The notes under the pieces: model-generated
The model's input: only the letters and a program-made list of their open reading frames with translations
What the model was told of the DNA's origin: nothing
Database searches by the model: none
NCBI RefSeq assembly: GCF_900188225.1
Contig: NZ_FZOC01000001.1
Location: forward strand, 310,596-374,595
Reading direction: 5' to 3'
Length of the DNA: 64,000 bases
DNA from: Humidesulfovibrio mexicanus
GTDB lineage: Bacteria; Desulfobacterota; Desulfovibrionia; Desulfovibrionales; Desulfovibrionaceae
Part shown: piece by piece, positions 19,357 to 62,132 of the stretch
How positions within the stretch are numbered: position 1 is the stretch's first letter
How the letters are laid out: every line of letters starts with the position of its first letter
Translations under genes and position numbers: made by a program

Positions 19357-19464
19357 GCAAAAGGCTCCTGGTTGCGGCGAAGCAGTGGGCGGGTGCGCCG
19401 AATTCGGGCCGCATAGCCTTCTCTACCCCACTTGCCCGCCGCAGACAATCGCCGCGCCAGCCGC

Positions 19465-20049: not shown

Positions 20050-20062
20050 GATTCCGTGCCCC

Positions 20063-20530: not shown

Positions 20531-20700
20531 CATCACTCCATACGTGTTCAGATTGCCACGACGAAGGCTTGTCTACGCCCAACTTTGGCGGGGTTCAAGA
20601 CACGCCTTCAGCCAGAAAATGGGCCTATGCGGGGATTGCCAGCGGACAGAACCGGATTTACCTTCAGCGCCTTCATCATCCATTGCCCCAGGAGCCGCCC

Positions 20701-38741: not shown

Positions 38742-38760
38742 TGGCGGAGAGGGAGGGATT
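38742..38760. repeat. attL: 19-bp direct repeat of the tRNA-Ser 3' end
   Basis: TGGCGGAGAGGGAGGGATT matches exactly the last 19 nt of tRNA-Ser (62039-62057), including CCA. After it the sequences differ (CTCGTC here, TGAACC in the tRNA). It marks the left boundary of the integrated island. Confidence 0.9.
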
Positions 38761-41040: not shown

Positions 41041-41267
41041 CCTCTCCTTGCACACAAAATGACCACCCCGCCATTAGCCACCGAGGAGTCCGATAAACGA
41101 ATGAAGGCGGACTTGTCTAGAAACGGGTGCTAAACAAAATTAACCCTAACCATAGCAGACAGTTGAAGCTGAAAAGCACCTGAGATATACAGCCAACCCA
41201 GACCAGAACAATCTCCGAAGGCAGTAGGGTAACACTCTAACGACAAACACATTCTCAGGGCTTGGTC

Positions 41268-42282: not shown

Positions 42283-42537
42283 ATGTACGAGATCGGATAC
42301 TGGGGCCGCCCTGGTCACCCGGATGGAGCACGGCACATAATCTTCACCGTGAATGGTGAGCGCGTGACTTACTGCGGAGCGCACAAGATGCTAGTCCCAG
42401 ACGTAGAGTTCACTCAGGCTGCCAGCGGGCTGGTCGAAGAAAAGGTGACCTGTGGTCACTGCAAGAGGATACTCAGCTCCCCTACGCTCCGATTGAAGCA
42501 CCTGGGCGAGGAGAAGTCGGACAGCGCCAAGGACTGA
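42283..42537 (+). CDS. Small hypothetical protein with Cys/His cluster
   Basis: An 84-aa protein with YCGAHKM (Cys31, His34) and CGHCKR (Cys57, Cys60), which could make one zinc site. CAGGAG precedes the ATG. Its stop overlaps the next start (TGATG), showing translational coupling. No family is recognised. Confidence 0.6.
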   Translation: MYEIGYWGRPGHPDGARHIIFTVNGERVTYCGAHKMLVPDVEFTQAASGLVEEKVTCGHCKRILSSPTLRLKHLGEEKSDSAKD

Positions 42538-42953
42538 TGGCTATGCTGACGCTGACTCCCAGAAAATGGTTTGGCTGGCAGATGCTCCCTGGCTATGGCA
42601 TGGCCCCCTATTTCTCGCCAATCAGGGTTGAGGAGATCACCGCCCTCAAGACGGGCCAGAGTATTCTCCGCCTCAGGTTCTTCAACGCGTTTTACGCCGC
42701 TGGTGTCCAGAACTTCGAGAAGACCCTGCGCGTACTCAGACGCCACCCCGAGTACATTGTCTGCGACATCATCCATGACGATGACGGACGAATGGCCATC
42801 ATCACGGCCTGTACTCCTGAGTTTCTGATCAAGCATGCCGATCCAGCATATGTAGAGCAAAACCGCACATTGTTACTTAATAGCGATCTACAAGCACTTC
42901 TGGACAGTGTGTATGGTTTTGACAACTCGCTCGGCGACAGAAAGGAAGGATAG
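42537..42953 (+). CDS. Hypothetical protein, translationally coupled
   Basis: A 138-aa soluble protein of unknown function that starts inside the stop codon of the preceding small gene. It has an IRVEEITALKTGQSILRL beta region and a DDDGRMAIITAC strand; the rest is mixed alpha/beta. It converges on the small gene at 42961-43311 with a gap of 7 bp. Confidence 0.6.
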   Translation: MAMLTLTPRKWFGWQMLPGYGMAPYFSPIRVEEITALKTGQSILRLRFFNAFYAAGVQNFEKTLRVLRRHPEYIVCDIIHDDDGRMAIITACTPEFLIKHADPAYVEQNRTLLLNSDLQALLDSVYGFDNSLGDRKEG

Positions 42954-42960: not shown

Positions 42961-43311
42961 CTATTTAATCCCAAAAAGCAATTTGATAAGCCTGCCAACC
43001 TGATTAATCTCTCGTTTTTGGGGATCTAGATATCCAGGCCGACCATGGCTTGGCCCATAAGAAACGTAAGCCTCAATTTCGAGATCAGTCACACTAAACG
43101 ATTTATCGACATTGACGAAAACAGGTATGAAAACTGCCTCTCTATATTCAGACTGTAGCGTCACGCGATACGTGCCATCCTCTCTCACCCATTCGTTTCC
43201 ATACATGTCATCACCGTAAGCTTGAGAGTCTCCATCGCTTTCATGCCATGCGATGTTCTTGATGGATTCAGGCAGAGCCAAGCCAATAACCTTACTTTGC
43301 CATGTATTCAC
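42961..43311 (-). CDS. Hypothetical protein at the end of the defence operon
   Basis: A 116-aa protein of unknown function with a beta-rich middle (TYRVTLQSEYREAVFIPVFV). The start is taken as the GTG at 43311, which follows AAGGGGGG by 4 bp; the frame extends to 43374 without a better site. It lies 102 bp after the DUF262 gene on the same strand. It is AT-rich compared with the operon and may be separate. Confidence 0.5.
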   Translation of the reverse strand: MNTWQSKVIGLALPESIKNIAWHESDGDSQAYGDDMYGNEWVREDGTYRVTLQSEYREAVFIPVFVNVDKSFSVTDLEIEAYVSYGPSHGRPGYLDPQKREINQVGRLIKLLFGIK

Positions 43312-43413
43312 ACATCCCCCCTTGACTATACTCCATTCAACAAGCGAAACAGACTCAAAGAGGAAGAACCTCACCTTGGCAATGATGTTAAATCACCGCC
43401 CACCTGCTTCCCT

Positions 43414-45207
43414 CTACAACGTGTTGTAGTACGTCTTGATCTTCTGCGCCATCAGCTCTCGCCGCGCCTTGAGGAACTCCGCGTAATCCCCCTGCTCGAG
43501 ATCGAGCGATGCGCCGGGGATGCAGTTCTGGATCAGGTTATTCTCCAGCTCAACTCGGTCATTGATGCCTCCCAGCTTGAGCGGCCCGCCAGCGCACTGC
43601 TCCAGGGCCTCAGCGAAGTAGGCCTTGGGGGCCTTGTTGCCGATCCGGATGTTGATCTCCGACTGGGTGAACACGAAGTTGGCGATCTGATTGTAAGCTC
43701 CCTGCTTCATGCCAAACTTCTTGAGGTAGTCACGCGGGAAGATGTGGTGGATGTCGCCCTGGTGGGCGATGAGCTGCCCCACCGTGATGTCTCTCGAAAG
43801 GAATCCACGATCCTCAAGCTTCACCTGGGCGGCCCAGAACAGGTTCAGGTACGGACTGTTCGTGCTTGCTTTCTCCAGTTCCTGCACCAAGCCAAAGCTC
43901 CAGAACGAGTCAGACAGCACGGCCTGCTCCGTCTGGGCCAGAAACTCGCTGAAGTCCCCTTCCTTGGCACGTTTGATGTCCGAGTCGAACTGACTCTCGA
44001 AGGCTCCGGAATAGCGGGCGGTGAGCAGTGAGAGGACGAACCAGCGCCTTACAGTGCGTTCGATGACTGCCGGGTCATACTTGTCCCGGCGAAGTTTCAG
44101 GTACAATGCATAGGCAAAGTTCAACGCGTTCTGGGACCGGATGAGACCAGGGGCGATGAACCCGGCGGAGCGGATGATCATGAGGAAACGCTGGAAGTGC
44201 GTCTCCTTGATGAAGTCCATGATGCCCTCGCCCAGGCGTACGAACGACTCAGCGGCGATCTCGTCCTCATACTGGCGAGTCTCGAAGTTCCTGCCCGAGA
44301 GTAGGCTCACAAGGTCCGACAGTTTGCCACGCTCAAAGGCCGCGATGCAGGCCACGCGGAGCATGTCTGTATAGGACGGATCGTAGAGGTCATCGTTCTC
44401 GTCCTTGAGCCAGGCCATCTTCTTGAACCAATCCGTGGCGGCAAACTCCGGGTCGCGCTCGGCGATTTGCCCATAGAACTCTGGCGCCACAGCCATGTGG
44501 CAGAAGTAGTCGATGGCCTTGCGCAGCATCGGCCCGCCGTAGCTCTCGCTGGCGGCGATCTTGGACATGGCGAAGTCCGACTGGTTCAGCACCACGCCTT
44601 TGGAGTTGATGCGGATGAAGATGTCCGTAACCGTTTCGATGTCCAGGTCGTGCGCCAGCTCCACAAAGCCGATCAGGTTGTTCCGAATGGCCAGCAGGTC
44701 CGTGATGGACTGCATGACCTGCTCCTGGTCCACCGTTGGGTTCTGGGCGCAGTAGGCCTTAAACACTGTGAACGGGTTGGCCGCGTTCTTCATGGCCTCG
44801 GAGATGTCCGGAATCCACGTCACGTCCTTCTCGATGGCCGGGTTGAGAACCTCAAACTTTCGGCTCAGCGGGTTGAAGGCGATGCGGATGCGCGTGAGCT
44901 TGTATTCCTTGGTGAGGACCTGATAGCCCAGCACGGCGGCCATCAGGGCCGTCACGCGCTGCTGGCCGTCGATGAGGACCTTCTTGCCCTCGCTCAGGGA
45001 GCCGTCCCGCAGACGTACGCTGGGGTTACGCCACGCGATGAGGTAGCCCACCGGGTAGCCCTGGAACAGCGAGTCCAGCAGATCACGGACGTTGGTGGCA
45101 TCCCACACGAAAGGACGCTGAATCTCAGGGATGGCGATCTCCCCGGCCTTGACCCAGGACAGGATGGTTTCAACGGGATGACTGTTGACGGAATAGCATG
45201 GGGGCAT
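43414..45207 (-). CDS. DUF262/DUF1524 protein (GmrSD/BrxU-like)
   Basis: A 597-aa protein. The N-terminal DUF262 domain has EIQRPFVWD (28-36) and the nucleotide-site signature [12 protein letters not shown] (Asp80-Arg84). The C-terminal DUF1524 has the HNH-like [14 protein letters not shown] (near 487) and [13 protein letters not shown]. This layout matches the type IV restriction proteins GmrSD and BrxU, which cut phage DNA with modified cytosines and use NTP through DGQQR. It starts 9 bp after the C2HC-finger gene with AAGGA, so it belongs to the defence operon. Confidence 0.85.
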
Positions 45208-45216
45208 TAGCGGTCC

Positions 45217-46251
45217 TTAACCTTCAGATATTTTTGCACTAAGTGACGGACGTTTCGGACACCTATCAGACTGGTGGCTTGGGAGGGTCGCCTTATTCAT
45301 TCTCGTGTCGCACCATGGGCAAACGACCTCGTTTTTCCCCAACGGGCGCGGAATCGGATGTTGAGCAGGTGAAGCGGCTGCCACTGGTGCGGCCCTTTCC
45401 CGAGAGACTGGGGTTGAGCAGCCAGTGCAGGTCTTTGCCAGATGCGTTTTCAAATGCTCTGCCTTCACAGGTATCTGGCACCGTGGGCAGACCACAATCC
45501 CAGGTCCGAGCTTGGTAGTCAAAGTTGGCTTGACTGGAGGCTTAACCGCCTGCTTTGACACTTTGGGAGCAGCGACTGGCTTGACCTTGCCATGCAGTTT
45601 TGGACAGCGTTCACGCAAGTGGCTGTCCAAGTTGGACGCATTGACCCCTGCTTGGCAGTGCGGGCAGATAACTCGCCCAGGAATTAGGGGAACCTTGGCT
45701 TTGCCTTTGGTCCGTGGCGTTGTCGGTGTTGGTGTGGTTGGCCTGCGCTTCTGAAATGTGTGCAGTGCTGGGGTCTTCAGGTACCCGGCGATGCCACCCA
45801 CGAAGTCATTCACGTAGATGGCTTGCGCCCCAAAAATCAGCTTGCCCTTTGTGCCGTGGCCATAGCCGGAGTAGGTATCCCCACGATAATTGGCGACGGA
45901 GCCGCGCACAATGGAGGTCAACTCCCCGCCAAGTCGCTCCCATGACTTTACCGGCACCGGCAGAACCTGCTGCTGTTGAATCCATTGCCGGATGCACTGA
46001 CAGCAGTCGTGGACTGCTGCGGAGACCAGGAATGTGTTGGCCCCGAACTCGACAGACCAGTTTCTCTCGCCACCGTCGAGCCGGTCAGCATGCTTTGGCG
46101 CACGGACAGGCCCAGCAGGATGAGACTCCCACCACGCACTGCCCGCCACGAGGTTCTCGGCCACGTGGCGAGGCACTCTCCCGTCGCGGCTGCAAACCTC
46201 ATCGAGACGCCTCAGCAATTCGTCACGCCAGGGTTTCAGTTTCTCCGACAT
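45217..46251 (-). CDS. Protein with three tandem C2HC (UBZ4-like) zinc fingers
   Basis: A 344-aa protein. Residues 1-165 are a domain of unknown fold (NWSVEFGANTFLVSAAVHDCC, GDTYSGYGHGTKGK). Three fingers with identical spacing C-x2-C-x11-H-x4-C follow: Cys196/199/His211/Cys216, Cys255/258/His270/Cys275 and Cys311/314/His326/Cys331, joined by Pro/Lys/Ala-rich linkers. The spacing is that of Rad18-type UBZ4 and related C2HC fingers, which bind ubiquitin or nucleic acid. Bacteria lack ubiquitin, so DNA or a small beta-grasp protein is more likely. It lies 44 bp after the methylase gene and 9 bp before the DUF262 gene. Confidence 0.75.
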   Translation of the reverse strand: MSEKLKPWRDELLRRLDEVCSRDGRVPRHVAENLVAGSAWWESHPAGPVRAPKHADRLDGGERNWSVEFGANTFLVSAAVHDCCQCIRQWIQQQQVLPVPVKSWERLGGELTSIVRGSVANYRGDTYSGYGHGTKGKLIFGAQAIYVNDFVGGIAGYLKTPALHTFQKRRPTTPTPTTPRTKGKAKVPLIPGRVICPHCQAGVNASNLDSHLRERCPKLHGKVKPVAAPKVSKQAVKPPVKPTLTTKLGPGIVVCPRCQIPVKAEHLKTHLAKTCTGCSTPVSRERAAPVAAASPAQHPIPRPLGKNEVVCPWCDTRMNKATLPSHQSDRCPKRPSLSAKISEG

Positions 46252-46295
46252 GCCACAGACTCGCTCAGGTTTGAGTGCGTAAAGACCCCGTGCCG

Positions 46296-49200
46296 CTATG
46301 CGCTGTCTCTCATCGCTCCTGCCATCTCGTCATACTTCTCCAGAATCATCTCCTTGGTCCGGTAACAACCATGGGCCGCCTCGTCCTTGCGCCTCACGAT
46401 GGGGAAGGTGTCCATGATGTAGTCCACGTCCTCGCGGCTGATGCCGTAGAGGTGGAAAAACGCTGCGTCGAGTTCACAGCGGATGGCGAAACGCTCTTCA
46501 AGGCTACGCGGCTGGTACGTGATGTTCAGCAACTCTGACATCTGGTAGTCGGAGGCATAGAGCGCCCTCGCCCTTGCCTGAATCCAGTCCTGAAGTGGTT
46601 CGCGCAAAGTCCACGGAGCGGGAACATCGAATTGGTTCGGGGGAAGAACAGGAATCTGCTTGAACACATGGTACTTCAAGTGCGTTCCACCAACCTTCTG
46701 CCTCGCAGCATAGTCCAAGGCGAATGACGTCAAACTTGAGGCTAGTATCGGCGATTGTTCACGGGTATTCACGGCAGGGAACATGAGCAAAAAGGTATCG
46801 CCGAATGCCGCTGCCGGTGTGATGCCGGGAATCACCGTCCGCTCGTTCGTGGTGTTGGTTATATCCCTCCACCCCATGAACCACTTGGGCGTGCGGCTGA
46901 GGACCAAGTCGCGGCCCTGTTGGATGGTATCGCCAGTCAGGGCCTGCTTGACCTGCTCGGCCTCGTCCGGCGTCAGGGGGTATTCTTCCTCCATCGCCTG
47001 GACAGCCACCCCGCCCGTGGTGGAGGCAATGAGGCTTGCCGTGCGGGGCTGCGTTGCGGCCAGGAGCTTGTTGCCCAGTTCCTTGTCGCCGTGGTTCAGG
47101 TGGTAGCCCGCCAGCCACATGACCAAGGCGCTGGTCACGAGCTTGCGCTCCGCCTCTCCTGGGTCTCGCTCAGCAGCAGCCAGGGCCTTGATGACCGCAT
47201 CCGGGCAGCGGCTGGCCCGCTTGGCCACCTCCCACTCATGCACCCAGTAGCGGGGCATCACCACGAAATCCGAATCCTGCTTCTCCTCCAGAGTCACGTT
47301 CCTGGTGCTGCCATCCGGCTCGTAGGTGGCCCAGCGGTGGTCATAGTGGTGGATCATCTTGGCCTCATACAGAGGCAGGTGCGTTTCCTCGTCCTTCACG
47401 AAGTGGTTGCCGCGAAGCGTCCAGCCTGCCTGCTCAAGATCGCTCTTAAATTTGAACAAGGCGGAATCGTTAGCCATGTGAAACATCACCATAAAGCGCA
47501 GCCCCCAAGGATTGACTTCAGGCTCCTTCTCCGTGGCCTCGCGGATCAGCACCGGCACACGGCGGTAGATGCCCTTGGTGATCTCGGCATCGCGCTTGGA
47601 GCGGAAGATGGGGCAGGTGCGCGTATTCGGGTTGATGAGGGCGATATCCTCGGCAGTCAGCTTGAACCGGCGTTCCTCTTCACGAATCTCTGCCACGTCG
47701 TGCAGGAAGAAAGCGAACTCTGCTCCTCCCTTGGCCGGACGCTTTGCTCCCGTCAGCGTGAGCAGGCAGAACTTCATCCGGCTATCGACCGCAGGAAACA
47801 GGTTCTTATTCTCGAAGTCATACAGGGACACCAAGCTCTGCCGCTCAACGATGTCCTGAAAGAAGAACTTGGTCGTGTCGTCCGAGGCGATTCCCGAAGG
47901 CACAATGCAGCCCAGGCGGCCAATGGGCGACAGGACTGACCGCCCCAGCTCGGTGAAAATGGTGTAGGTATTGATGTCCCCGCGCCCGCACAGCGGATAG
48001 CGGCTGGAATTGCGCAACAGGTGGCTCTCGCCTTCGGCCTTGCGCTTGTCCTCGTTGAAGGCCTTGAGCAGGTCGGGATCGGTCTGGGCCAACTCACGGA
48101 TGAGCCGTTGCCGCTCGGCGGCATTGCGGGCGTTGGCAATGTCCGGTCTCTTGCCAGCGAACCACTCCTTTTCCTGAATCTTGATGCGCTCCCACGGCGG
48201 ATTGCCCAGCACCACGTCAAAGCCGCCGTCCCAGCCCGCCGGGGCATTCTCCGGTGCATTGCCCTTGCAGGGCAGGCGGAACACCTCGGGGAAGGCCAAG
48301 TGCCAGTGGAAGAACTGGTACTGCCGGGACAGCCGCTCGATCTCCTTCTGCATCCAGTCGGGGATGCTGAACGGATTCTTCTCGATGCGCCGGAACACGT
48401 CCTCGGTGATGGGATAGAACGCCTCGCCTGCCGGGGCCTTGATTTTCTTCCACACAAAAGCCGCGCACCAGGCATCAGCCCACATGCGACCAAAGCGGTA
48501 TCCGCTGCCACTGGCTAGGCTCTCCCACATGCGCTGGCGCTCGCGGACACCCTCGATGGTGGAATCGTCAACACGCATGAACGCCTGCACGGACTCGGCA
48601 AGATTGCCAAGCTGGATGAACGGCTCCTCGGCGTAGGGCATCAGGCCAGAGCGCTTCAGCCGGGCCGCGTGGTCCTTGCGCTGTTCCTTGTTGCTCTTCT
48701 TGGCGGCTTGGCAGCGTTCCTTCTCGTCGCCCTCAATGGGGCTGAAGGCCTCATCCGGGATGCCAGCTCGCAACAGCGCGGGCGTGGCCCCAAGCAGACT
48801 GTTGCCGCACTGGACATGGCTGTCCAAAAAGGACAGCGGCTTGCCAGGGTCCATGGACTCCAGCCAGAGGCTCACCTTGCACAGCTCCACGGCCATGGGG
48901 TTCAGGTCCACACCGTAGATGCAACGGCTGATGATGGCGCGCTTGGCATCGCGCACGGCCTCCGGCGCTGGCTCGTCCTCGCCCGTGCGGGCAGCGGCCA
49001 GGGCCTTGGCCATGCGGTTGGCGGCGGCCAGCAGGAAGTGGCCGCTGCCGCAGGCCGGGTCGCACACCTTGAGGTCCAGGATGGCCTGCTCGGGGTTCTC
49101 CGCCTTGCGGGCCTCGGCCAGGACCGGATCAAGGGCCGTGTCCAGCAGGCTCTGGATGAGGCTCTCCGGGGTGTAGTAGCTGCCCGTGGTCTTGCGCTCG

Positions 49201-50540
49201 TGGCCTGCGGCGGTCTCCAGCTTGAAGCCATCGTCCATGTTGGGGTGCAGTTCCAACAGGGACTCGTAAATGCTGCCCAGCTCCTCGGCCCCAAGGTTCT
49301 TGAAGTCCACCGGGCGCAGGCCCTCAGGCCCTGTAATGGTGGCCAGATGCCGCACTGCGGCAAGCAGCGACTCATTGCTGATCCGGCACGGCTCAATGTC
49401 GGGCATGGCGGACTTCGAGAACAGCATGCTCCCAAGCGGGGCCAAGCCAAGCTCTGGGCAGCCTTCATCGGTGCCAAGGCGTTGCATGATCAAACGCAGA
49501 CCTTCAAAAAGGTCATCGTGGCGGGTGCCTCGCAGGCTTGCGGCAAGAGTTCTCAGCCGGGCAGTGGAGTAGAACCTGAGGAACACCTCCGCCTGCCGGG
49601 AAGACGAATCCTTGAGCAGCAGACCGCGATCCTCGGAAACGAAAAGGAACAGCAACCGGTAGATCAGGCGGAGCAACTGGCGGAAGTAATCCTGCTTGTC
49701 CAAGGCTCCCGAAGCCAGCTTGGTTCGGATGTCCAAATTAGACGGATGTTTCAAGAAGCCCGTGCCGAGTTCGTTGATGGCGGACTCAACCCCGGTGCGG
49801 AGATGCTCAAGCACGCGGGAGCCGATGTCCCGAGCCGCCTTGGACCACTGCTCAAGGAAGCAGTCCTCTGGCCTAGCAGCTTCCACACGGGACTGATGGC
49901 ATACCAGCCACAGGAGGCGGAAGTCCGGATAGACCTGGCCTTCCATCATGGCCTCGAGGTCGAACTCGACAAAGGCCTGACGGGTGAAGCTGATGTTGTC
50001 GCGCAGGATGCGCAGCTTGAGGCCGTTGGTGACAAAGGCCCAGAGGTGGTCGTCCGAGCGGTTCAGGAGTTCCTGAACAAGCCCATGAGGCGCTGCGATT
50101 GTGGCGCCCTGGATGCCCCTGGTCTTCTTGTCCAGCGGCACATTGCAACCGAGCAGATGGATGGGCGTGCTGCCCCAGCCGTGAGAGATGGAGTAGGACT
50201 TCCCGCCCAGTTCAATGGCCTTGGCTCCCAGCAAGCGGCCATAGCCCAACTCGTTGAAGAGGGGCAGGAGCCACTTCTCGCGGGTCTCGGAGGTTCCGGG
50301 CTTGTCTCCAGGTATCGCCTCGCGGACAGTCTTGAAGCTACCCCAGGCGGCCAGCAATCTGTTCCAGGCACGGTTGGTGGCCTCAGAAAGCTTCTCCCCG
50401 CCTGTGAGGTGGTAGGCTTCAGGCGTCAGGCCGGGAAGTGCCTGATCCAGGTCCGCAACCCGCTGGAGGATGTCCGGCGGCAGGGCCGAACCTTCCGTGG
50501 TGACGGTGGCGAAGATGTCGCGGGACTTCTTGATGATCAT
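46296..50540 (-). CDS. N6-adenine DNA methylase (DrmMI/Eco57I-like)
   Basis: A 1,414-aa protein. The methylase domain has motif I DPACGSGHFLLAA (near 494), GVDLNPMAVELCKVSLW and the catalytic NPPW in VVLGNPPWERI (near 778), all of the gamma-type N6-adenine class. The N-terminal 450 residues and the C-terminal 500 match the recognition and scaffold parts seen in large Eco57I/DrmMI/PglX proteins. It should mark self DNA. The ATG at 50540 overlaps the SNF2 stop by 4 bp and has AGGAGG. Confidence 0.88.
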   Translation of the reverse strand: MIIKKSRDIFATVTTEGSALPPDILQRVADLDQALPGLTPEAYHLTGGEKLSEATNRAWNRLLAAWGSFKTVREAIPGDKPGTSETREKWLLPLFNELGYGRLLGAKAIELGGKSYSISHGWGSTPIHLLGCNVPLDKKTRGIQGATIAAPHGLVQELLNRSDDHLWAFVTNGLKLRILRDNISFTRQAFVEFDLEAMMEGQVYPDFRLLWLVCHQSRVEAARPEDCFLEQWSKAARDIGSRVLEHLRTGVESAINELGTGFLKHPSNLDIRTKLASGALDKQDYFRQLLRLIYRLLFLFVSEDRGLLLKDSSSRQAEVFLRFYSTARLRTLAASLRGTRHDDLFEGLRLIMQRLGTDEGCPELGLAPLGSMLFSKSAMPDIEPCRISNESLLAAVRHLATITGPEGLRPVDFKNLGAEELGSIYESLLELHPNMDDGFKLETAAGHERKTTGSYYTPESLIQSLLDTALDPVLAEARKAENPEQAILDLKVCDPACGSGHFLLAAANRMAKALAAARTGEDEPAPEAVRDAKRAIISRCIYGVDLNPMAVELCKVSLWLESMDPGKPLSFLDSHVQCGNSLLGATPALLRAGIPDEAFSPIEGDEKERCQAAKKSNKEQRKDHAARLKRSGLMPYAEEPFIQLGNLAESVQAFMRVDDSTIEGVRERQRMWESLASGSGYRFGRMWADAWCAAFVWKKIKAPAGEAFYPITEDVFRRIEKNPFSIPDWMQKEIERLSRQYQFFHWHLAFPEVFRLPCKGNAPENAPAGWDGGFDVVLGNPPWERIKIQEKEWFAGKRPDIANARNAAERQRLIRELAQTDPDLLKAFNEDKRKAEGESHLLRNSSRYPLCGRGDINTYTIFTELGRSVLSPIGRLGCIVPSGIASDDTTKFFFQDIVERQSLVSLYDFENKNLFPAVDSRMKFCLLTLTGAKRPAKGGAEFAFFLHDVAEIREEERRFKLTAEDIALINPNTRTCPIFRSKRDAEITKGIYRRVPVLIREATEKEPEVNPWGLRFMVMFHMANDSALFKFKSDLEQAGWTLRGNHFVKDEETHLPLYEAKMIHHYDHRWATYEPDGSTRNVTLEEKQDSDFVVMPRYWVHEWEVAKRASRCPDAVIKALAAAERDPGEAERKLVTSALVMWLAGYHLNHGDKELGNKLLAATQPRTASLIASTTGGVAVQAMEEEYPLTPDEAEQVKQALTGDTIQQGRDLVLSRTPKWFMGWRDITNTTNERTVIPGITPAAAFGDTFLLMFPAVNTREQSPILASSLTSFALDYAARQKVGGTHLKYHVFKQIPVLPPNQFDVPAPWTLREPLQDWIQARARALYASDYQMSELLNITYQPRSLEERFAIRCELDAAFFHLYGISREDVDYIMDTFPIVRRKDEAAHGCYRTKEMILEKYDEMAGAMRDSA

Positions 50541-53386
50541 GCGGCACCTCCTGCCTGCCGAGGAACCGGCATGAAGACGTAGAGGCCCAGCACGTCAGGG
50601 GGCAACTGTGGCTCTATGGCATAGGAGACGCCCTTGTGGCGGCTCTCCGTGCGAACTCGCCTGTGGGCCGCCAGCAACTCTTCCCCCCTGCTCCTGGCGA
50701 AAGTTTCCAGTTCAGGCCAAATGGCGTCGAAGCCTTGAATTATCGGGCTGAGGAAACTCCTGGCCATGTCAGGTGGCACGCTGGCATCAGGCATTGTCAG
50801 CAACAGCTTCTCAGCTTGCTCTTCTGGAATCCAGACCATTGCATCGGGAGACCCCTCAAACCCCAAAAGGCGGCAGTCCTCAGCCAAGAGCGGCGTCTCG
50901 ACCCCGTCCTTGCGCGTGATGATGTGGTAGCGAAACCGCACCATCAGGATCGTGGTGCGGGTCGTCACCGCCCTGGTGCGGATGGCACCACAGCGTTTGG
51001 CAATGCCTTCCTGGATGGGATCAAGGGCGGTATCCATGACGTAAGCGGCCAAGCTTTCGACGAAGTTATGCGTGCGGTGCAGGTATACCTCATCGTCCTG
51101 CACCGGCATGGCGAACCGAGCTTTGAGAGTATCGCTGATTGGGAGGGAATCTTTAAGCGCCTGAGGAGTCCCTCTCAGTTCGGCGCTCAAGCGCGGACCA
51201 GCCACAGAGACTGTGGCCCCCAGCGCCTGGAGGGCCTCGCGGGTGAACCGCTCCACCTCCACACCGGAACCGATGGCTGAACGCATGGCATCCAGTTCCT
51301 TGGCCACCTCGTCGGTCTTGATGGCTTCCTGGGCGAACATGGTGCGGGTGCGCTTCTCTCGCTTGGAGGCGTTCTCCCACTCGGCGTACAGGGCCTCGGC
51401 CTTGGGTTTGATGAGTTCCTCCATGCCCGGCAGGAAGAGGCTGCGCTGGCCCTGAGACTGAGCCGCGCCACCGCGCAGCAGCAAGCCCTCGAAGATGGCC
51501 TGGACCACAGCGTCGCTCTCCACGGGAACGGGAACGGAAATGCCGAGATCGTTCTTGATGGTCTTGTGCTTTTTGATGAGGATGTCGATGATGAAGCCGT
51601 CGATCTGATTGTCGATGCCGAAGTACGTCATTATGCGCACGACAGGCTTGGGCTGGCCAAAGCGGTCCACCCGGCCTTCCCGCTGCTCATGACGAGTCGG
51701 GTTCCACGACAGGTCATAGTGGATGACCGCATCAAAATGCTCTTGGAGGTTGATGCCCTCGCTAAGGCAGTCAGTGCAAACAAGAACGCGTTTGGGGGCT
51801 TTGGATAAGTCGTACACGCGCTCCTCGCGTTCCGCCGGGGGCAGCATGCCGGTGACCGAGTCGACGACAACGCCTGTGAGCTTCTTGCGCAGTTCCTCTG
51901 CAACATAATCCGCCGTTGGAATGAAACGGCAGAACACGATGGGGTGGAATCCTTCGTCCAGCAGCTTCTTCACCTCAGTCAGTATCGTCTTCAGCTTCTG
52001 GTCTTCGGCTCCCATAAGAGCTTCGGCCTCTCGTGCCATCTGCAAGAGCCGCCTGCGGACCTGGCTGTTCTCGTCTTCCACATAGACATCGCTGCCAGGG
52101 GCGACATCAAGTGCGTCTCCCCCCTCCTCGTCCAGCAGGTCCAGCACGGTCTGCCGTCCAAGCTGGTCAGCTTCCTCTGCGCTCTCCGTGTCCGCAACGC
52201 TGGCACGGCTGCGAAGCGTAGCAGCCGCAGCAGCCGGGCTGGAAGCCAGGGACCTCAACAGGCCCAGCACGGACCACCAGCGGACCCTCTGCCGATGCCT
52301 GCCTTCGTCCTGTCCAGCTTGGACGGTCTCCCGGGCGTACTCCAGCACCTTGTCAAAAAGCTTCTTATAGTTCGGAGACAGACGGTATTGGAGTTCCCGC
52401 TCTTCCCTGTCTGGGAAGGGGGTATCGGTGGAAAGGAAGTGCCGGATGTCCGCCCGCTTTCTCTGAACAAAATGGGCAGCCAGTTTACGTCTGTTCTGCT
52501 CCTGCTCAGGACCAGCCAAGTCCTCTGGCAGGTTGCTAAACTCGGGGTTGAGCAGCGACAAGAGCGAGCGGAACGCGGCGTCCTTGCCGCTATGCGGCGT
52601 AGCGGTCACCAAAACCATGTGTTGATCAGGCTTGGCGGCAAGATCCTTCACGAGGCGGTGCCGCTGATGGCGAACACCACGTCCGTCCTCGCCCCACGCG
52701 CAGGTATGAGCCTCATCGATGATGACCAACTCAGGGCAGGTTCGAATGAACTCATCGCGGCGGTGATCGGTTTTGATGTAGTCCAAGGACACAACGGAAT
52801 AAGGGTAGCGTTCGAACAGGGATTCCCCCGGCCTGCAATGACGCTCCAAGCTCCTTGCCGTGGAAGGCAGGATCAACACCGTTTCGATGTTGAACTTCTC
52901 GCGAAGCTCGCCTTGCCACTGTTCAGCAAGGTGTGGAGGGCAGAGGATTGCCAACCGCTGTATTTCGCCACGGTCCAGCAACTCGCGTGCGATGAGCGAA
53001 GCCTCTACGGTTTTGCCAATGCCCACGTCGTCGGACACGAGAATACGAACAGGATCAAGCTTGAGGGCCATGAGCAGCGGAACCAACTGGTAGGGCCGAG
53101 GTTCCACCGCAATCTTACCGAACGAACGGAAAGGCCCGGCACTGGACCGGAACCCAAGCCGGACGGCATCCCGCAGCAGACGCGACGTAATGAAGTCTCC
53201 GGGCTTTCCCGGATCTGGCAGGGCAAACTGGGCAGGTCCTACAGGCTCCAGAGCAGGCAAGACACCGGCAATCTCCTTATCCGTTCCACCAAGTGGACGT
53301 AGGACCAACAAATCATCCGAAGAGTCTGGGAGCACGACCCATTCCCGGTTCCTGGCCTTGACGAGTGAACCAACGGCGTAGCTCAT
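50537..53386 (-). CDS. SNF2-family helicase (DrmD-like)
   Basis: A 949-aa superfamily 2 translocase. Walker A is DDVGIGKT (119-126), Walker B DEAH (224-227), motif III VTATPHSG, and motif VI QREGRVDRFGQ (near 575). About 370 residues follow without a domain I recognise. SNF2 proteins next to a large adenine methylase are a mark of class 1 DISARM (DrmD) and some type III BREX. The start ATG at 53386 overlaps the upstream stop by 4 bp; a longer frame reaches into that gene. It is coupled to the methylase by another ATGA. Confidence 0.88.
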   Translation of the reverse strand: MSYAVGSLVKARNREWVVLPDSSDDLLVLRPLGGTDKEIAGVLPALEPVGPAQFALPDPGKPGDFITSRLLRDAVRLGFRSSAGPFRSFGKIAVEPRPYQLVPLLMALKLDPVRILVSDDVGIGKTVEASLIARELLDRGEIQRLAILCPPHLAEQWQGELREKFNIETVLILPSTARSLERHCRPGESLFERYPYSVVSLDYIKTDHRRDEFIRTCPELVIIDEAHTCAWGEDGRGVRHQRHRLVKDLAAKPDQHMVLVTATPHSGKDAAFRSLLSLLNPEFSNLPEDLAGPEQEQNRRKLAAHFVQRKRADIRHFLSTDTPFPDREERELQYRLSPNYKKLFDKVLEYARETVQAGQDEGRHRQRVRWWSVLGLLRSLASSPAAAAATLRSRASVADTESAEEADQLGRQTVLDLLDEEGGDALDVAPGSDVYVEDENSQVRRRLLQMAREAEALMGAEDQKLKTILTEVKKLLDEGFHPIVFCRFIPTADYVAEELRKKLTGVVVDSVTGMLPPAEREERVYDLSKAPKRVLVCTDCLSEGINLQEHFDAVIHYDLSWNPTRHEQREGRVDRFGQPKPVVRIMTYFGIDNQIDGFIIDILIKKHKTIKNDLGISVPVPVESDAVVQAIFEGLLLRGGAAQSQGQRSLFLPGMEELIKPKAEALYAEWENASKREKRTRTMFAQEAIKTDEVAKELDAMRSAIGSGVEVERFTREALQALGATVSVAGPRLSAELRGTPQALKDSLPISDTLKARFAMPVQDDEVYLHRTHNFVESLAAYVMDTALDPIQEGIAKRCGAIRTRAVTTRTTILMVRFRYHIITRKDGVETPLLAEDCRLLGFEGSPDAMVWIPEEQAEKLLLTMPDASVPPDMARSFLSPIIQGFDAIWPELETFARSRGEELLAAHRRVRTESRHKGVSYAIEPQLPPDVLGLYVFMPVPRQAGGAA

Positions 53387-56300
53387 TTGATCTTCCCAAA
53401 GATGGATTGGTGGTTGGAGATGATGCCTGTCCACGTGGACGAGTCGCCAGGGAACCGAATGACAAGGTATCCGGCGTTGGCAAGACAGGCCTCTTGCTTG
53501 GCGTCCTTGGCCTGAACGTCGGCATGGCTATGCGGATGGCCATCAATGTAGATCGCAGCCCCCTGCCCTTCATAGAAAAAGTCTGGCCGCGTGCTGCACT
53601 CCGGGACAAGAAATTGCGCATGGCTGGGCAGCCTAAGGCCTTTTCCCTCCAGGAACATGAGCCAATCCTTTTCGAGGGTGGAGCCTGACAACTTAAGGAG
53701 GTCATCCAGGTGAGACTGCCTGGGCTTCGGCCCAGGAGACGAGGAAACAGCAGCCTGGGCCATGTCCAGGAGGAATCCTTTGATCAACTGCCGGTCAAGC
53801 AGCCCGTGGTCTCGCTGGTTGGCGTAATTCAGCAAGCAATCGTAGCAGGCCGCCTCGCACTCCTCTATGGCGCCAGGAGGCAGCCGCCTATCTTCGCCCG
53901 TATCCGGGTCAAAATGGCAAATTTCAAGCGCCAGCCGGGCGACCTCAGCAAAATCCTGAGGCCCGTCAAGGAGCCTGCGAAGCACACCAGCCCCCCCTTC
54001 AGCGGATTCATAGAACAGGATGGTCCGCCTATCACGGCTGCTGGGCAGCGGCTCGGCGGCGAGTTCCATGCTTTCAAGCTGGTACTTGACCTCGATGGCT
54101 CTTTTTAGCGCAGACTGGAGAGTAGCCATGAACTCAATGCTCAGCTCTCGCTTTGGCTCAAGGATCAAGCTGTTACGCCTGTCCGCCACGTACGGAATGA
54201 CCCGCTGGGTGTTGCTGGTCATCGGATCGGTATCATCGTCATCTTCGTCTGCTTTATTCTTGGACCAAAGGCCCTTGTCCATGTCCAGAACAAAGCCATG
54301 TTCGTCCTTGTTCTTGCGCCTGCTCCAGCCCATATTGATCCGCCACAGCGTTGCACCGTGGCCATAGATCAGCCTAGCAACCTCACCCTTGTCACCGGCT
54401 ACGCTTCCATGCCTGAAGGTCGGGGTGCCATCCTGGTCGTCAAACCGGACAGTGGTGACCAAGTCGAACCCGTAGCGCATCCGCTCTTCTTCATCGGAGT
54501 TGATCTTGTCTCGCCTCCGGGTGGCAACGTTCTGCATACGGAAGAGCGGGCCAAGGGGAAGGTTCAAGGGATTCTCGCACTGTTCGCACAAGTCTGGCCC
54601 CCCGGTTTCCGGGCAATTGTGCAGGTATCCGCAAAGAGGACAGATTTTGGCCTTGGTCAGCAGTGGCTCGTCTTCACTGACCGGCATGATGACCTTGTGG
54701 ATCACGTACCTGGCACCTTCGTGATAGAGCACCGCCCTTGGCCCGAACTCCGAGATGGCAAGGAATCTCGGACGTGAGAGATACTCGTCCCGCTGCTTGG
54801 CCTTGCGTGCTGGGATGAAGGCTGAAAGAGGCAACCTGGGGAAATTGTAGCCAGGCAGGAAACCTTCGCTCGCAAAGTAGCGATAGCAGTAGAAATCCGA
54901 CTGCTGAATGTCATCAACGTCCGCCAGCAAGGCGAGTTGTGCTTCCGCCTCTTGCCGTTGGCGTTTAGCCCTCTGCTTCTCATCGTGCGATCGTGTTGGA
55001 TCGCGAATGATGTCATCTTGCTCGCCAGCCTGAGCCAATGCAGCACGATAAAGTCCGCGCCAACGATCACAAGCTTGGTCAAATCTCCGTGTGACATAGG
55101 CGAAGACACTGTCGAGCCATTTGTCATCATACCAATCCACCTGGCTCAGGTCGTCCTGAATGCTCGCAAGAACATGCCGCGCTCGAATGAGCGCCTGCTT
55201 CTTGGGTTCAAGGGCGTTCAGTTTCTCCAAAACGGAAGGCAGGAAGGGATACTGCTGCTGCCCACTGCTGAGGTCCAGGATATCCCTGAGCGACTTCTTG
55301 AGGTCGAGGTCGGACTCGGCAAGCCAAATCGCCTGCATGTGAGCGCGGACGAGGTCTTCATTCGTCAAGTCCAACCGGGGCGGAGTTACGCTTCCCGCCA
55401 CCATCCTTGTCGGGCGCTTGAAGAAATATTGGTCGTGGGAACTGCCGGTGGTGCAGTAGGTGAACACAAGCGCTGGCTGACCGCCTCTACCTGCACGGCC
55501 ACTGCGCTGCGCGTAGTTCGCTGGCGTGGGCGGAACATTCCGCAAGTTCACGACATTCAAGTCAGAAATATCGATGCCAAGCTCCATGGTCGGGGAACAA
55601 AACAAGATGGGGAGCCGAGCCTCGCGGAAAGCATTCTCCCGCTCCTGCCTGAGATAGTTTGGCACTTGAGCCGTATGCTCTCTGGCCAGGTATCCTTTCA
55701 GCCCGGACGCTACGATTCGATAGAAATCCACGAAGAATGGGTTTGTGCGGAGTCCAGAGTCCGAGGTACGTGGTACCCTGATTGGATCATGGTAGGCCTG
55801 GGTTCCGGCCCCAGCCTTCCAGACGAGGGCAGCGGCCCGAAGCTGGTAGCCAGGGACGTCATCCGGCTTTCGAGGTGGCCTGACAATCTCGAGCAAACCG
55901 CCTTCCGTCAAAATGCGGAGCAGCTCTGCAAATATTCCAGGCAATTCCTCCTGCTTAATACGCTCCGCGTACTCAGGAAATGTCTTTCTCCTCCCAAGGA
56001 ATTGACCAAAGCCACCTCGCGGGGAGAGGTAAACGTACCCCTGATACTCTTTGGGTCGAATCCCTCTTGGATATAAGACTGAGGCATGCTCCATCTTCTT
56101 TTGCTCAGCCTCATCAAGCCCCCATGGCTCAATCAAGTACTGAGAACTCTGCTGCTGGATGGATTCCTGGATGCCGCTGTCCAGGTAGTCCACCTTCACA
56201 GCCAGATTACGCCTGAAGTAGTCCAGTAGAACCTTGCAGATGTAGGTTTTGGTCGCGACATCCGCCGAAGACAACGCAGGATGGCACCCGCCCCAGGCGG

Positions 56301-58566
56301 CAGCGTTGGCGCAAATGGACGGCAGTGCCGGGTAGTCAATCTCAAGTAGGCCACACTGCTCAAGGTTCGGAGACGTCACGCGCCAACCGCGCTTGAGATC
56401 ATTGTAGAGACGATACCCCAGAACATTCCTCAACGCCTTGCCAGCGTTGAGCAACTGGATTTCAGAAGCATCTCGGGTCAGAGTCGAGTACTCTTCCGGA
56501 TCAAGCGCCAACGCCCTGAACACGCCGGAAGTCAAATTGTCATGGGAGATTCCCTCTGGCCCGGCATCCAAGGCCGCACGGTAGAGCGCCGAGCGAAGCA
56601 GGCTTACTTCGATAAAGTCGTTGAAATGACCGGCCTGAAGCGAAGCATCCTGTCTGTTATCGGTAAAGCTGAGGAGCTTCTTGGCCTCATCGTCCAACCC
56701 CTCTTCGGCACGCAAAAGCTTAACGGTGGATAGCCCAAGGACCGTTGTCGCTGTGCTACGGCCACCAGTGGCGAGCGAACTCAACTTGGAACTGTCAGCC
56801 CGCTGGCGAGCATCGTATGCCACGCCACATTGCAGGCAGAAGCGGAATGGTGCGGGGACGAATGCGGCATCCACACCATCCTTGCTGGCAACACCTGAGC
56901 CAGCGATTCTGATCGCTTCGGGGACCCGGTCTTTGACGGTACTCTTAAGCCGCCGCTTGCCATTCTTCTCCTCAACCCAATCCTCAGGGACACGCTCGAT
57001 GACCTCAGCAGCATCCACTGGCCAGGCATTGTCCTCGGATATAAACAGGAATCCTGGCAGGGATTCGTCATCCGTAAATTGGTCGGAGTAGTCGCGTGCT
57101 TCGAAGCATGTTTCACGCGTTTCTGCATTTTTAACTCTGCTGACGCTGTAGTACTCCTGGCCACATTCCCGGCAGAATACGACCGGAAACAAGACGCGGT
57201 CTCGGTTTCCTGGCACATACTTTTGCCCGTTCAGGGTAATATGGCGATCCGCAATGCCCTCAGGCGAGGCATATACTGCATCTCCCCTCGAGATGAACTG
57301 GTGGAGCCTGAAGGCGAACGGCTTGAAGCCAGTGACGGGATTCGGATCGCACTGAGTTCCGCCCAGTAGCGCCGCCTTGATCGCCATGGAACAGGTCTCG
57401 GCCCCAAGTCCGGTGAGATTGCTGAGAAGCGCGGCAGCCCCATCCTGTCCGTCAACGCTTTTGGGCGTGGCTCGAACGAGGCGGCCAGAGTCTGCCTCCT
57501 TATGGATGCCCAACGTGCTTTCAATCCAGCAGCACAGGGGATCGCGGACAAACTCATCATAGCGGACCGGAAAAGGCCGGGAAGGATCAGCAGCCCGCTC
57601 GGCCAAGTCCTTGACGAATGCGGGGTCCGCCTCATCCCGGTATGGAGTGGTCCGAAGCAAGGTCTCGCCGATAATATGCTCAGGGGCAACGTCGGCACCA
57701 AACAGTTTGGAGGCGACACCAGCCACCTCGACTCGCTGCTGCTCAAAAGTCCCAGCGCCGCCCAGCGTTGCCGAAGTGCCGACACATTGGAGGCCAGCAC
57801 CGGCAAGGCGGTCTCGGACTCGCCGGACAAGCATGGCGACGTCTGCTCCCTGCCGCCCCCGGTACGTGTGCAACTCATCAAGGACCAAGAACTTCAGCCC
57901 AACTGCGGCCTTTATGAGTTCTCGTTCGCGAGGCCTTGTGAGCATCAGCTCAAGCATGACGTAGTTGGTGAGGATGATATCCGGTGGGCTGGTGATTATC
58001 TCTTGCCGGTCTTTCTCGGACTCCTGCCCAGTGTAGCGCCTGAAGGTCACCGGGGCCTTCCCGTCCGGGTACCCCAGGCACAAAAACTTCTCGAGTTCTC
58101 CGTGCTGGCTGTTTGCCAATGCGTTCATCGGGTAGATGATTATGGCTTTGGTCCCTTTCCCCGAGCCGTTGCGAAGAACAAAATCCACGATTGGCAGGAT
58201 ATACGAGAGACTTTTGCCGGAGCCAGTGCCGGTAGTCAGGACGTAGTTATGGCCGCTCCTGGCCGTCCGGACCGCCTCTTCCTGGTGAGTGTACAGCCGA
58301 ACCGGCGTGCCTTCTCCCTTGTCCTTTCCCTTGCGGAAGATCTTTTCTGCCTCCGGGTGCAGAAGCTTTTCCGACACGAGGTCTGGAACAGACTTGCCTG
58401 GAGCATACGAGGGGTTGAGCTGAATCAGCGGATCAGGCCAGAGCCGTCCTTCGTTGATCTGTTCGGACACCTCTTGCCGAATGCGGGGATCACGGATCGT
58501 CAGAAAGCTCTTGATGTAGGTCGAGTAGTCAGCAATCAGGCGCTCTCGAAAATCGAAAATATTCAT
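53383..58566 (-). CDS. DEAD/H helicase-DUF1998-nuclease fusion (DrmA/DrmB/MrfA-like)
   Basis: A 1,727-aa protein. Walker A is TGTGSGKS (112-119), Walker B LVLDELH (227-233), then SATLGG and motif VI QRSGRAGRGGQ (near 1028). Cys pairs CRECG, FCLQCG and CPLC/CEQC suggest zinc sites. DUF1998 (about 1515-1590) has ESAEGGAGVLRRLL and CYDCLLNYANQRDH. The last 90 residues (RPDFFYEG, AIYIDGHPHSH, AGYLVIRF) look like a Vsr/DUF559-type PD-(D/E)XK nuclease, although the usual E-x-K is IYID. DISARM splits helicase (DrmA), DUF1998 (DrmB) and nuclease (DrmC, PLD type) into three genes; here one chain carries analogous parts. It is first in the operon. Confidence 0.85.
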   Translation of the reverse strand: MNIFDFRERLIADYSTYIKSFLTIRDPRIRQEVSEQINEGRLWPDPLIQLNPSYAPGKSVPDLVSEKLLHPEAEKIFRKGKDKGEGTPVRLYTHQEEAVRTARSGHNYVLTTGTGSGKSLSYILPIVDFVLRNGSGKGTKAIIIYPMNALANSQHGELEKFLCLGYPDGKAPVTFRRYTGQESEKDRQEIITSPPDIILTNYVMLELMLTRPRERELIKAAVGLKFLVLDELHTYRGRQGADVAMLVRRVRDRLAGAGLQCVGTSATLGGAGTFEQQRVEVAGVASKLFGADVAPEHIIGETLLRTTPYRDEADPAFVKDLAERAADPSRPFPVRYDEFVRDPLCCWIESTLGIHKEADSGRLVRATPKSVDGQDGAAALLSNLTGLGAETCSMAIKAALLGGTQCDPNPVTGFKPFAFRLHQFISRGDAVYASPEGIADRHITLNGQKYVPGNRDRVLFPVVFCRECGQEYYSVSRVKNAETRETCFEARDYSDQFTDDESLPGFLFISEDNAWPVDAAEVIERVPEDWVEEKNGKRRLKSTVKDRVPEAIRIAGSGVASKDGVDAAFVPAPFRFCLQCGVAYDARQRADSSKLSSLATGGRSTATTVLGLSTVKLLRAEEGLDDEAKKLLSFTDNRQDASLQAGHFNDFIEVSLLRSALYRAALDAGPEGISHDNLTSGVFRALALDPEEYSTLTRDASEIQLLNAGKALRNVLGYRLYNDLKRGWRVTSPNLEQCGLLEIDYPALPSICANAAAWGGCHPALSSADVATKTYICKVLLDYFRRNLAVKVDYLDSGIQESIQQQSSQYLIEPWGLDEAEQKKMEHASVLYPRGIRPKEYQGYVYLSPRGGFGQFLGRRKTFPEYAERIKQEELPGIFAELLRILTEGGLLEIVRPPRKPDDVPGYQLRAAALVWKAGAGTQAYHDPIRVPRTSDSGLRTNPFFVDFYRIVASGLKGYLAREHTAQVPNYLRQERENAFREARLPILFCSPTMELGIDISDLNVVNLRNVPPTPANYAQRSGRAGRGGQPALVFTYCTTGSSHDQYFFKRPTRMVAGSVTPPRLDLTNEDLVRAHMQAIWLAESDLDLKKSLRDILDLSSGQQQYPFLPSVLEKLNALEPKKQALIRARHVLASIQDDLSQVDWYDDKWLDSVFAYVTRRFDQACDRWRGLYRAALAQAGEQDDIIRDPTRSHDEKQRAKRQRQEAEAQLALLADVDDIQQSDFYCYRYFASEGFLPGYNFPRLPLSAFIPARKAKQRDEYLSRPRFLAISEFGPRAVLYHEGARYVIHKVIMPVSEDEPLLTKAKICPLCGYLHNCPETGGPDLCEQCENPLNLPLGPLFRMQNVATRRRDKINSDEEERMRYGFDLVTTVRFDDQDGTPTFRHGSVAGDKGEVARLIYGHGATLWRINMGWSRRKNKDEHGFVLDMDKGLWSKNKADEDDDDTDPMTSNTQRVIPYVADRRNSLILEPKRELSIEFMATLQSALKRAIEVKYQLESMELAAEPLPSSRDRRTILFYESAEGGAGVLRRLLDGPQDFAEVARLALEICHFDPDTGEDRRLPPGAIEECEAACYDCLLNYANQRDHGLLDRQLIKGFLLDMAQAAVSSSPGPKPRQSHLDDLLKLSGSTLEKDWLMFLEGKGLRLPSHAQFLVPECSTRPDFFYEGQGAAIYIDGHPHSHADVQAKDAKQEACLANAGYLVIRFPGDSSTWTGIISNHQSIFGKIK

Positions 58567-58676: not shown

Positions 58677-59393
58677 TCAGCCAGCAATGGAAACTTGGGC
58701 AGGCGGAGAGTTGCCCGCAATCCGGCTGATCCGCAGCAGTAGATTGGAGACCGAGGACTTGTGCCAACGCCCGCCACGAGGTGTCAGCATTCCGCGTTCG
58801 TTGAGGGATCGAGCCAAGGCTCCGAGCGATGTAACCCCCTCAGCCTGAAGGGACGCGATGACAGGCGCGAGATCTGAGGCGTGGCGATCCGCACTCGCCT
58901 TGATGCTGTCAATGCTCTGCACGTTGCCCTTCCCTGCCCGCCGCAGGGCCGCTGCACCGTTGGGATTCCCCAGACGCACGCCACGCGCCTTGGCGGATGC
59001 CAGGGCCTCTCTGGTGCGCTTTGCGATGGCCTCACGCTCCTGCTGTGCGACCAGGGCCATAATGCCCACGGTCAAGTCGTTGGCCTCAGGCATGTCAGCA
59101 GCGACGAAACGAACCCCACTGTCTCGGAGCGCGAGCAAGAAGGCCGCATTACGTGAGAGTCTGTCCAACTTTGCGATGACCAGCGTTGCGCCGGTAACCT
59201 TGGCGAGATGAAGCGCCTTAGCCAACTCAGGGCGCCCATCGACCTTTCCGCTTTCGATCTCTGTAAAGGAACCGACGAGGGTGGCGTTTTTAGAACGGAC
59301 ATGCTCCTGGATGGCTCGATCCTGAGCTTCCAGCCCCAGGCCACTCCGGCCCTGGCGGGCTGTAGAAACACGTTGGTAGGCGACGATCTTCAC
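58677..59393 (-). CDS. Serine recombinase (resolvase/invertase family)
   Basis: A 238-aa small serine recombinase. The catalytic Ser is in YQRVSTARQG near the N-terminus; AKLDRLSRNAAF and QEREAIAKRTREAL are the other family blocks. A C-terminal HTH region (VTSLGALARSLNERG) follows a linker that is longer than usual. The GTG start at 59393 follows AAGGGG; an upstream TTG is weaker. It lies 110 bp upstream of the helicase gene on the same strand. A perfect inverted repeat sits just upstream. Confidence 0.88.
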   Translation of the reverse strand: MKIVAYQRVSTARQGRSGLGLEAQDRAIQEHVRSKNATLVGSFTEIESGKVDGRPELAKALHLAKVTGATLVIAKLDRLSRNAAFLLALRDSGVRFVAADMPEANDLTVGIMALVAQQEREAIAKRTREALASAKARGVRLGNPNGAAALRRAGKGNVQSIDSIKASADRHASDLAPVIASLQAEGVTSLGALARSLNERGMLTPRGGRWHKSSVSNLLLRISRIAGNSPPAQVSIAG

Positions 59394-60160: not shown

Positions 60161-60161
60161 G

Positions 60162-62037: not shown

Positions 62038-62132
<95 letters not shown>

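Follow-up and report, generated by a model that had tools for sequence, protein, structure and literature searches.

Genes 1-3 of a five-gene cluster in Humidesulfovibrio mexicanus very probably form an ARMADA type I defense system, predicted to be active and carried as cargo by an element integrated at a tRNA-Ser gene, with gene 4 as a probable accessory and gene 5 as a probable second layer. The core is an already published kind of system and not an undescribed variant of DISARM. The window that we analyzed comprises 64,000 nt of contig NZ_FZOC01000001.1, and all coordinates are window positions. The five genes and the nuclease domain of gene 1 are located as follows.

53383-58566, reverse strand: gene 1, YprA-family helicase of 1727 aa with DEAD, Helicase_C, MZB/DUF1998 and a C-terminal Vsr-like nuclease
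53386-53799, reverse strand: C-terminal Vsr/DUF559-like nuclease domain of gene 1 (AF2, Foldseek, DUF559, conserved residues)
50537-53386, reverse strand: gene 2, BrxHII/RapA-like SNF2 helicase (949 aa from ATG 53386; 965 aa from GTG 53434)
46296-50540, reverse strand: gene 3, PglX/DrmMI-like adenine methylase of 1414 aa, with a variable C-terminal part at about residues 1000-1300
45217-46251, reverse strand: gene 4, putative accessory protein with a conserved N-terminal domain and C2HC fingers, fast-diverging
43414-45207, reverse strand: gene 5, DUF262/GmrSD_N protein, predicted modification-dependent nuclease (Pfam, PDB 7p9k, HHIFP motif)

An earlier annotation of this DNA (the sequence-only reading) had described five genes running leftward, with ATGA overlaps linking the first three. 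The open reading frames (1727, 965, 1414, 344 and 597 aa for genes 1-5, spanning 58566 to 43414) confirm this, with 4-bp overlaps at 53386-53383 (genes 1/2) and 50540-50537 (genes 2/3), and domain searches agree with the defense-type operon and gene set that it proposed. Because most homologues of gene 2 match only from about ATG 53386, this is most likely the true start. The gaps before genes 4 and 5 are 44 and 9 bp, which makes a single transcript for genes 1-5 plausible; promoter and terminator scans remained at chance level.

Genes 1-3 and ARMADA type I

ARMADA is defined by YprA, BrxHII-like and PglX-like proteins (Bell et al., September 2025 preprint, PMC12458937), and in type I a YprA with a C-terminal Vsr domain is followed by the BrxHII-like and then the PglX-like protein. 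According to that work, YprA helicases usually come as one chain, and DISARM is peculiar in dividing this chain into DrmA and DrmB (PMC12458937). Further marks of type I are a CxxC zinc-binding module within the RecA2 insert of YprA and a BrxA-like helical domain behind RecA1. The window core fits every ARMADA type I feature that was testable.

Gene 1 carries DEAD, Helicase_C and MZB (DUF1998) domains above the Pfam cut-offs in one chain, and its best PADLOC model is DruE3 (312 bits). Its last 138 aa form a confident AF2 fold (pLDDT 90.6). A Foldseek search of the PDB with this domain gave the Vsr-like homing endonuclease I-Bth0305I as the top match (E 0.02, probability 1.00), and nothing at E 0.001. 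DUF559 was detected in 29 of 30 homologous C-terminal domains at E 0.01, and in the window copy it lies barely above the cut-off (20.8 vs 20.6). Across 71 rows (the window plus 70 of the 91 loci L010-L100, the remaining loci having shorter open reading frames), conservation is 93% for E1632, 97% for D1662 and 89% each for D1675 and H1679; the latter two are absent from about 11%, and the window copy retains the acidic and His residues of the nuclease. The pairs C465xxC468 and C577xxC580, which may be the zinc-binding module of the RecA2 insert, occur in at least 97% of the rows. Gene 1 thus joins helicase, DUF1998 and Vsr-like nuclease in one 1,727-aa chain, as the sequence-only reading had held on this point and as Pfam domains and the AF2 fold agree, and the C-terminal domain is predicted to be an active Vsr-type nuclease, which fits ARMADA type I.

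Gene 2 contains SNF2-related and Helicase_C domains (Pfam), and its best solved relative is RapA. The PADLOC model PDLC02853, named DpdE, matched it almost end to end with 880 bits, compared with 187 bits for the curated NCBIfam DpdE model (cut-off 500). Judging by this contrast, PDLC02853 may have been built on ARMADA proteins.

Gene 3 contains Eco57I and N6_Mtase domains (Pfam); its top PADLOC models are DrmMI (228 bits) and type IIG, and PglX models are weak. DPACGSGH and NPPW, both methylase motifs, can be read in the sequence; their naming partly follows PMC12458937. The DrmMI, type IIG and weak PglX matches, together with homology to ArmB, suggest the likeness of gene 3 to PglX. With DruE, DpdE and DrmMI as its names for the three parts, the 2023 PADLOC library may cause ARMADA I loci to be miscalled by tools built on it.

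Pairwise comparisons used ARMADA II and Druantia III of E. coli ATCC 8739 and the class 1 DISARM of Nocardioides as references. Gene 1 scored 124 + 114 bits (238) with ArmC, 112 + 93 bits (205) with DruE and 31 bits with DrmA. For gene 2, ArmA gave 159 bits and DrmD, a 769-aa protein that may be incomplete, gave 71; for gene 3, ArmB gave 152 bits and the DISARM methylase 114.

The gene order was kept across genomes. A gene 2 profile from a nine-row alignment found relatives in at least 567 stretches, and 80 relatives were kept; they were picked by similarity to gene 2 and are therefore not a census. ARMADA type I is widespread. Among the 69 with at least 1.5 kb on each side, 66 have a YprA gene upstream and a methylase gene downstream on the same strand, the exceptions being L027, L077 and L094. 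An arrangement found in 66 of 69 testable relatives is not due to chance. Both gaps between the matches are below 150 bp in 45 of the 70 loci having both partners. According to record titles, the relatives' taxa include Chloroflexota, Planctomycetota, Desulfobacterales, Acidobacteria, Actinomycetota, Gracilibacillus and the archaeon Methanothrix, and plasmid-borne copies are found in Deinococcus, Nocardioides, Roseomonas, Acinetobacter and Rhodococcus. The sequence-only reading had ranked the locus as the best candidate for an undescribed system; genes 1-3 are already catalogued under the name ARMADA type I (PMC12458937), an outcome that this reading had itself listed as refuting its claim.

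For phylogenetic analysis, 21 of the 91 loci were chosen and 1, 3 and 3 were dropped for short open reading frames (genes 1, 2 and 3, respectively), giving maximum-likelihood trees of 28, 25 and 25 rows. In all three trees the window proteins stand among type I-like rows, apart from four ARMADA II loci, and the ARMADA II group has a support of 100/99 or 100/100. The type I-like group occupies one side of a branch for gene 2 (100/99) and gene 3 (96/98). The YprA tree does not place the type I-like set on one side of a branch (2 changes; 18% of bootstrap trees do so), the backbone is unresolved, and the DISARM and DruE branches are very long; the window row lies inside a 7-row type I-like set (100/99). 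The rows of Haloquadratum, DISARM and DruE sit on long branches, and their positions are unsure. The type I assignment rests on order, domains and trees with our own set of relatives in place of the published reference WP_108720193.1.

Two relatives showed further features. In Deinococcus radiodurans R1 (L010), the annotation breaks the ARMADA I methylase into two pieces (17823-19652 and 19752-21374), after which comes an IS630-like element; the parts of the literature reached by a gene-tag search gave no useful link to this copy. A Chlorohelix plasmid (L015, 13836-28365) has two extra genes inside ARMADA I, followed by EVE-domain and DUF2357 proteins.

The carrier element and variation among islands

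The locus lies within an integrated element with the following features.

38742-38760, forward strand: left 19-bp direct repeat (attachment site copy), a perfect copy of 62039-62057
38761-62038, no strand: integrated element body, 23.3 kb (repeats, low G+C, congener islands)
58677-59393, reverse strand: serine recombinase, resolvase/invertase (Pfam Resolvase 87 bits; start by G005/G219 homology)
60162-61949, reverse strand: tyrosine integrase, DUF6538 and Phage_integrase (Pfam, PHROGs)
62039-62132, reverse strand: tRNA-Ser (GCT), the integration target, whose 3' end at 62039-62057 is the right repeat (ARAGORN, repeat)

In 2-kb steps, G+C is 0.53-0.64 in the element and 0.62-0.69 elsewhere in the window. 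The same island, with the same tRNA-Ser and the same 19 bp, is present in the congeners G005 (23,125 bp) and G219 (22,958 bp), and measures 23,316 bp here; of 12 sampled genomes of the genus, 3 have gene 2 (E 1e-60). The integrase is 84% identical in G005. In G219 its reading frame is broken into two parts, and the island there may therefore be stuck. Carriers integrated at tRNA genes have been described for ARMADA II islands (PMC12458937), and the carrier in the window resembles them.

Other open reading frames of the element were also inspected. Beside the integrase, 59459-60193 (reverse strand) encodes 244 aa with an identity of 47-49% to the islands of the two congeners; of 10 other genes compared, 7 are above 80% in at least one of these islands. 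This protein was unmatched in Pfam, NCBIfam, PADLOC and PHROGs; its YHGT...GL...FF motifs look like an ADP-ribosyltransferase fold. A 442-aa protein (39727-41055, reverse strand) matches PHROG 4756, whose function is not known, over most of its length; DNA polymerase A-like motifs were seen by eye, and it may be the replication protein of the element. Two small orphan frames, 42537-42953 (forward strand) and 42961-43374 (reverse strand), lie where the island mostly fails to align with the congeners and had zero matches in family searches, Pfam and PHROGs among them.

The three islands differ in a mosaic manner. Between G005 and G219, DNA identity is 98.5% for gene 1, 96.7% for gene 2, 83.8% for gene 3 and 48% for gene 4, and the drop in gene 3 lies mostly at residues ~1000-1300 (42-82% per 50-residue window). 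Where islands have near-identical helicases, few regions vary more than gene 4 and the C-terminal part of gene 3; variation is also seen in P0007, next to the integrase (47-64%), and in P0010, on the left side (67-77%). Gene 4 and the methylase segment appear either to diverge or to be replaced. Over residues 1151-1300 of gene 3, the window is 90-96% identical to G219 and 42-62% to G005, whereas gene 4 of the window is 38% identical to G219 and 66% to G005. Because the sharing of the segment and the sharing of gene 4 disagree between pairs, co-variation of gene 4 with the methylase recognition part is not supported.

Gene 5 is 97-99% identical across all island pairs. At fourfold sites, its identity in pairs with the window (0.79-0.80) tops that of genes 1-3 (0.48-0.67), probably because gene 5 passed between the window lineage and the others at a later time than its neighbors. 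For G005 and G219, fourfold-site identity is 0.85 for gene 5 and 0.97, 0.90 and 0.68 for genes 1, 2 and 3.

Genes 4 and 5

Gene 5 matches GmrSD_N with 100.1 bits (Pfam cut-off 33.2) and, over 50 residues, a DUF262 protein of the PDB, 7p9k (BrxU; E 5.7e-10). No Pfam match to a C-terminal DUF1524 was obtained at E 0.001; an HHIFP motif, read by eye, may mark a DUF1524 HNH nuclease. Gene 5 probably encodes a GmrSD-like enzyme against modified DNA. Its relatives, with up to 60% identity, reside on plasmids beside type I, type ISP or EcoRI-like genes or without such neighbors; some relatives in further genomes of the order have type I genes nearby that could be recognized by eye. Judged by these relatives, gene 5 is a general restriction module.

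Gene 4 has an N-terminal domain of ~165 residues with WWE-HPSG and FGAN-FL motifs, followed by two or three C2HC fingers, the last ending in RCPKRP; the pattern CxxC...H...C can be read three times in the sequence. Strand-strand-helix elements at the fingers in a weak model (pLDDT 59.7) agree with this reading. With this pLDDT, a fold search of the PDB is uninformative, and it gave no match at E 0.001. Relatives were found in 5 of 297 genomes of the order (E 1e-6) and 3 of 395 genomes of the phylum (E 1e-8), two of the latter being already in the five and the third unconvincing; a match in G667, with an internal stop and an uninformative neighborhood, was set aside. Residues 22-163 were also matched in four plasmid records of Leptolyngbya boryana, where a cysteine-rich, zinc-ribbon-like stretch resembling NrdR precedes the domain at the N-terminus. 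No phage match was seen at E 0.1 and no relative in viral contigs. A narrow literature search found no paper on such a finger protein, which is weak evidence of absence.

Gene 4 is the only really new piece of the locus, and genes 4 and 5 both look like local additions to the ARMADA I core. We consider it unlikely that all five genes are one functional unit, that is, ARMADA I with two dedicated accessories. The common strand, the short gaps and a five-gene order in three species speak for such a unit. Moreover, in G127 a 75% identical gene 5 homologue comes directly after a C-terminal piece of the methylase that is 37% identical to gene 3 (residues 1213-1410); gene 4 is missing there, and the other parts of the ARMADA trio are on a different contig. 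However, Meiothermus, Priestia and Rhodococcus have relatives of gene 5 apart from ARMADA, beside other restriction genes. In 44 ARMADA I loci (those of the 91, L010-L100, whose methylase is complete and followed by at least 1.5 kb), the 5 kb downstream contain no such relative, as far as the loci extend. The sequence-only reading had placed the finger and DUF262 proteins in the same operon; their adjacency stands, but the two proteins are not part of the conserved system, given this 0/44 count for gene 5 and the lack of gene 4 relatives in loci L010-L100 (tblastn, E 1e-5). The two further relatives of gene 4 known from the order are neighbors of BREX and of type III genes.

The relative in G122 heads a run of genes leading away from it to BrxC (fourth gene, 1,316 bits), BREX being called by BrxC alone. 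In G168 the relative follows, at a distance of two genes, a type III-like Res (382 bits, below its cut-off of 564; ResIII and RE_endonuc) and Mod. A YagK/YfjJ-REP replication protein is encoded near both relatives, and an integrase near that of G122. One might speculate, with a rather low probability, that gene 4 founds a new accessory family of defense islands that plugs into unrelated methylation-based systems (ARMADA I, BREX and type III) via its conserved N-terminal domain, with the fast-changing fingers recognizing DNA or a phage protein.

Even less probable, and by a wide measure, is that genes 4 and 5 make up a two-gene system of their own, with the finger protein guiding or restraining the GmrSD-like nuclease. 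They are 9 bp apart, occur together in three species, and neither was found downstream of other ARMADA I loci; but G168 and G122 have gene 4 relatives without a gene 5 relative (E 1e-60), and gene 4 is missing (E 1e-6) from 13 of the 16 genomes that have a relative of gene 5.

Within 5 kb downstream of ARMADA I, as far as the loci extend, McrB-like proteins occur in 13 of the 44 loci and McrC-like proteins in 8, the McrB-like count coming from a one-round profile at E 1e-5 that may include other AAA ATPases. Upstream relatives of gene 5 are present in L034 (a 117-aa piece) and L066 (opposite strand). Pfam McrBC was found in 7 of the 91 downstream open reading frames scanned; among the best 25 families (PADLOC, Pfam), these 91 frames encode McrBC, AAA proteins and scattered defense and unrelated genes. 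A link with McrBC was noted before by the group that described ARMADA (PMC11090510). For an accessory role of gene 5, BREX with BrxU provides a tested precedent in which a modification-dependent enzyme and a methylation-based system act as complementary layers (PMC8565348). By analogy, gene 5 may have that complementary role here.

Proposed mechanism and comparison with known systems

We propose that the PglX-like enzyme would mark host DNA at an adenine in a target sequence that its variable C-terminal part would determine. Entering DNA without the mark would be engaged by the SNF2/RapA-like translocase and the YprA helicase; the latter would unwind the DNA under its OB-DUF1998 canopy and cut it with the C-terminal Vsr nuclease. 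The cell would survive, as expected for direct rather than abortive defense. Gene 5 may provide an independent second layer, GmrSD/BrxU-like, against phage DNA whose modified bases escape the first, and gene 4 would be an accessory zinc-finger protein, probably binding DNA or a partner protein. In published experiments, which concern type II only, ARMADA II protected E. coli against 13 of 80 phages, required all four genes and was non-abortive (PMC12458937). The window copy is intact by sequence, and G005 and G219, with near-identical helicases and a differing methylase C-terminal part and finger protein, offer a natural swap experiment for specificity.

The sequence-only reading had taken the locus for a compact class 1 DISARM in which one fusion replaces drmA, drmB and drmC. 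DISARM class 1 shares with the window an SNF2 helicase, an adenine methylase and a helicase with DUF1998, and the matches of gene 2 to DrmD (NCBIfam, 308.5 bits) and of gene 3 to DrmMI (PADLOC) bear out that relationship; but the fused-DISARM interpretation has next to no probability, with DrmD at half of its cut-off of 610, gene 1 nearer to ArmC and DruE (each above 200 bits in two segments) than to DrmA, lower DISARM scores for all three proteins, no separate drmA or drmB, no PLD nuclease (drmC) seen in the locus but a Vsr-like C-terminal domain instead, and a Nocardioides plasmid that carries class 1 DISARM near a separate ARMADA I. On this plasmid, pNOCA01 of Nocardioides sp. JS614 (L012, L149), DISARM (drmD, methylase, drmA, drmB) lies a few kb from the ARMADA I trio, which is followed by McrBC and a TcmP gene.

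Druantia III has, like the window, a single-chain YprA helicase ending in a nuclease, but with PLD nuclease domains and with DruH where the window has the SNF2 helicase and methylase. Druantia was rejected: no DruH, DruABCD or DruMFG partner was found among seven island proteins with PADLOC (best 25 families for genes 1-3). Dpd was rejected on the curated DpdE score of gene 2, despite the PADLOC match. BREX was also rejected, PglZ and BrxC being unmatched in ten island proteins (Pfam, NCBIfam), as the sequence-only reading had stated. BREX with BrxU on pEFER likewise places a methylation-based system beside a GmrSD-family type IV enzyme (PMC8565348); it differs in having BREX in place of ARMADA, and the phmmer match of gene 5 to 7p9k covers only 50 residues.

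ARMADA II of E. coli ATCC 8739 has homologues of all three window proteins, but its order, BrxHII-PglX-YprA-UvrD, differs, and no UvrD/GajB-like ArmD was found among the window proteins scanned. In comparison with ARMADA I, the finger and GmrSD-like genes are extra here, DUF262/GmrSD being absent from the main text of PMC12458937. Gene content, gene order, the one-chain YprA-DUF1998-Vsr protein, the BrxHII-like protein and the PglX-like methylase are all common to ARMADA I and the window.
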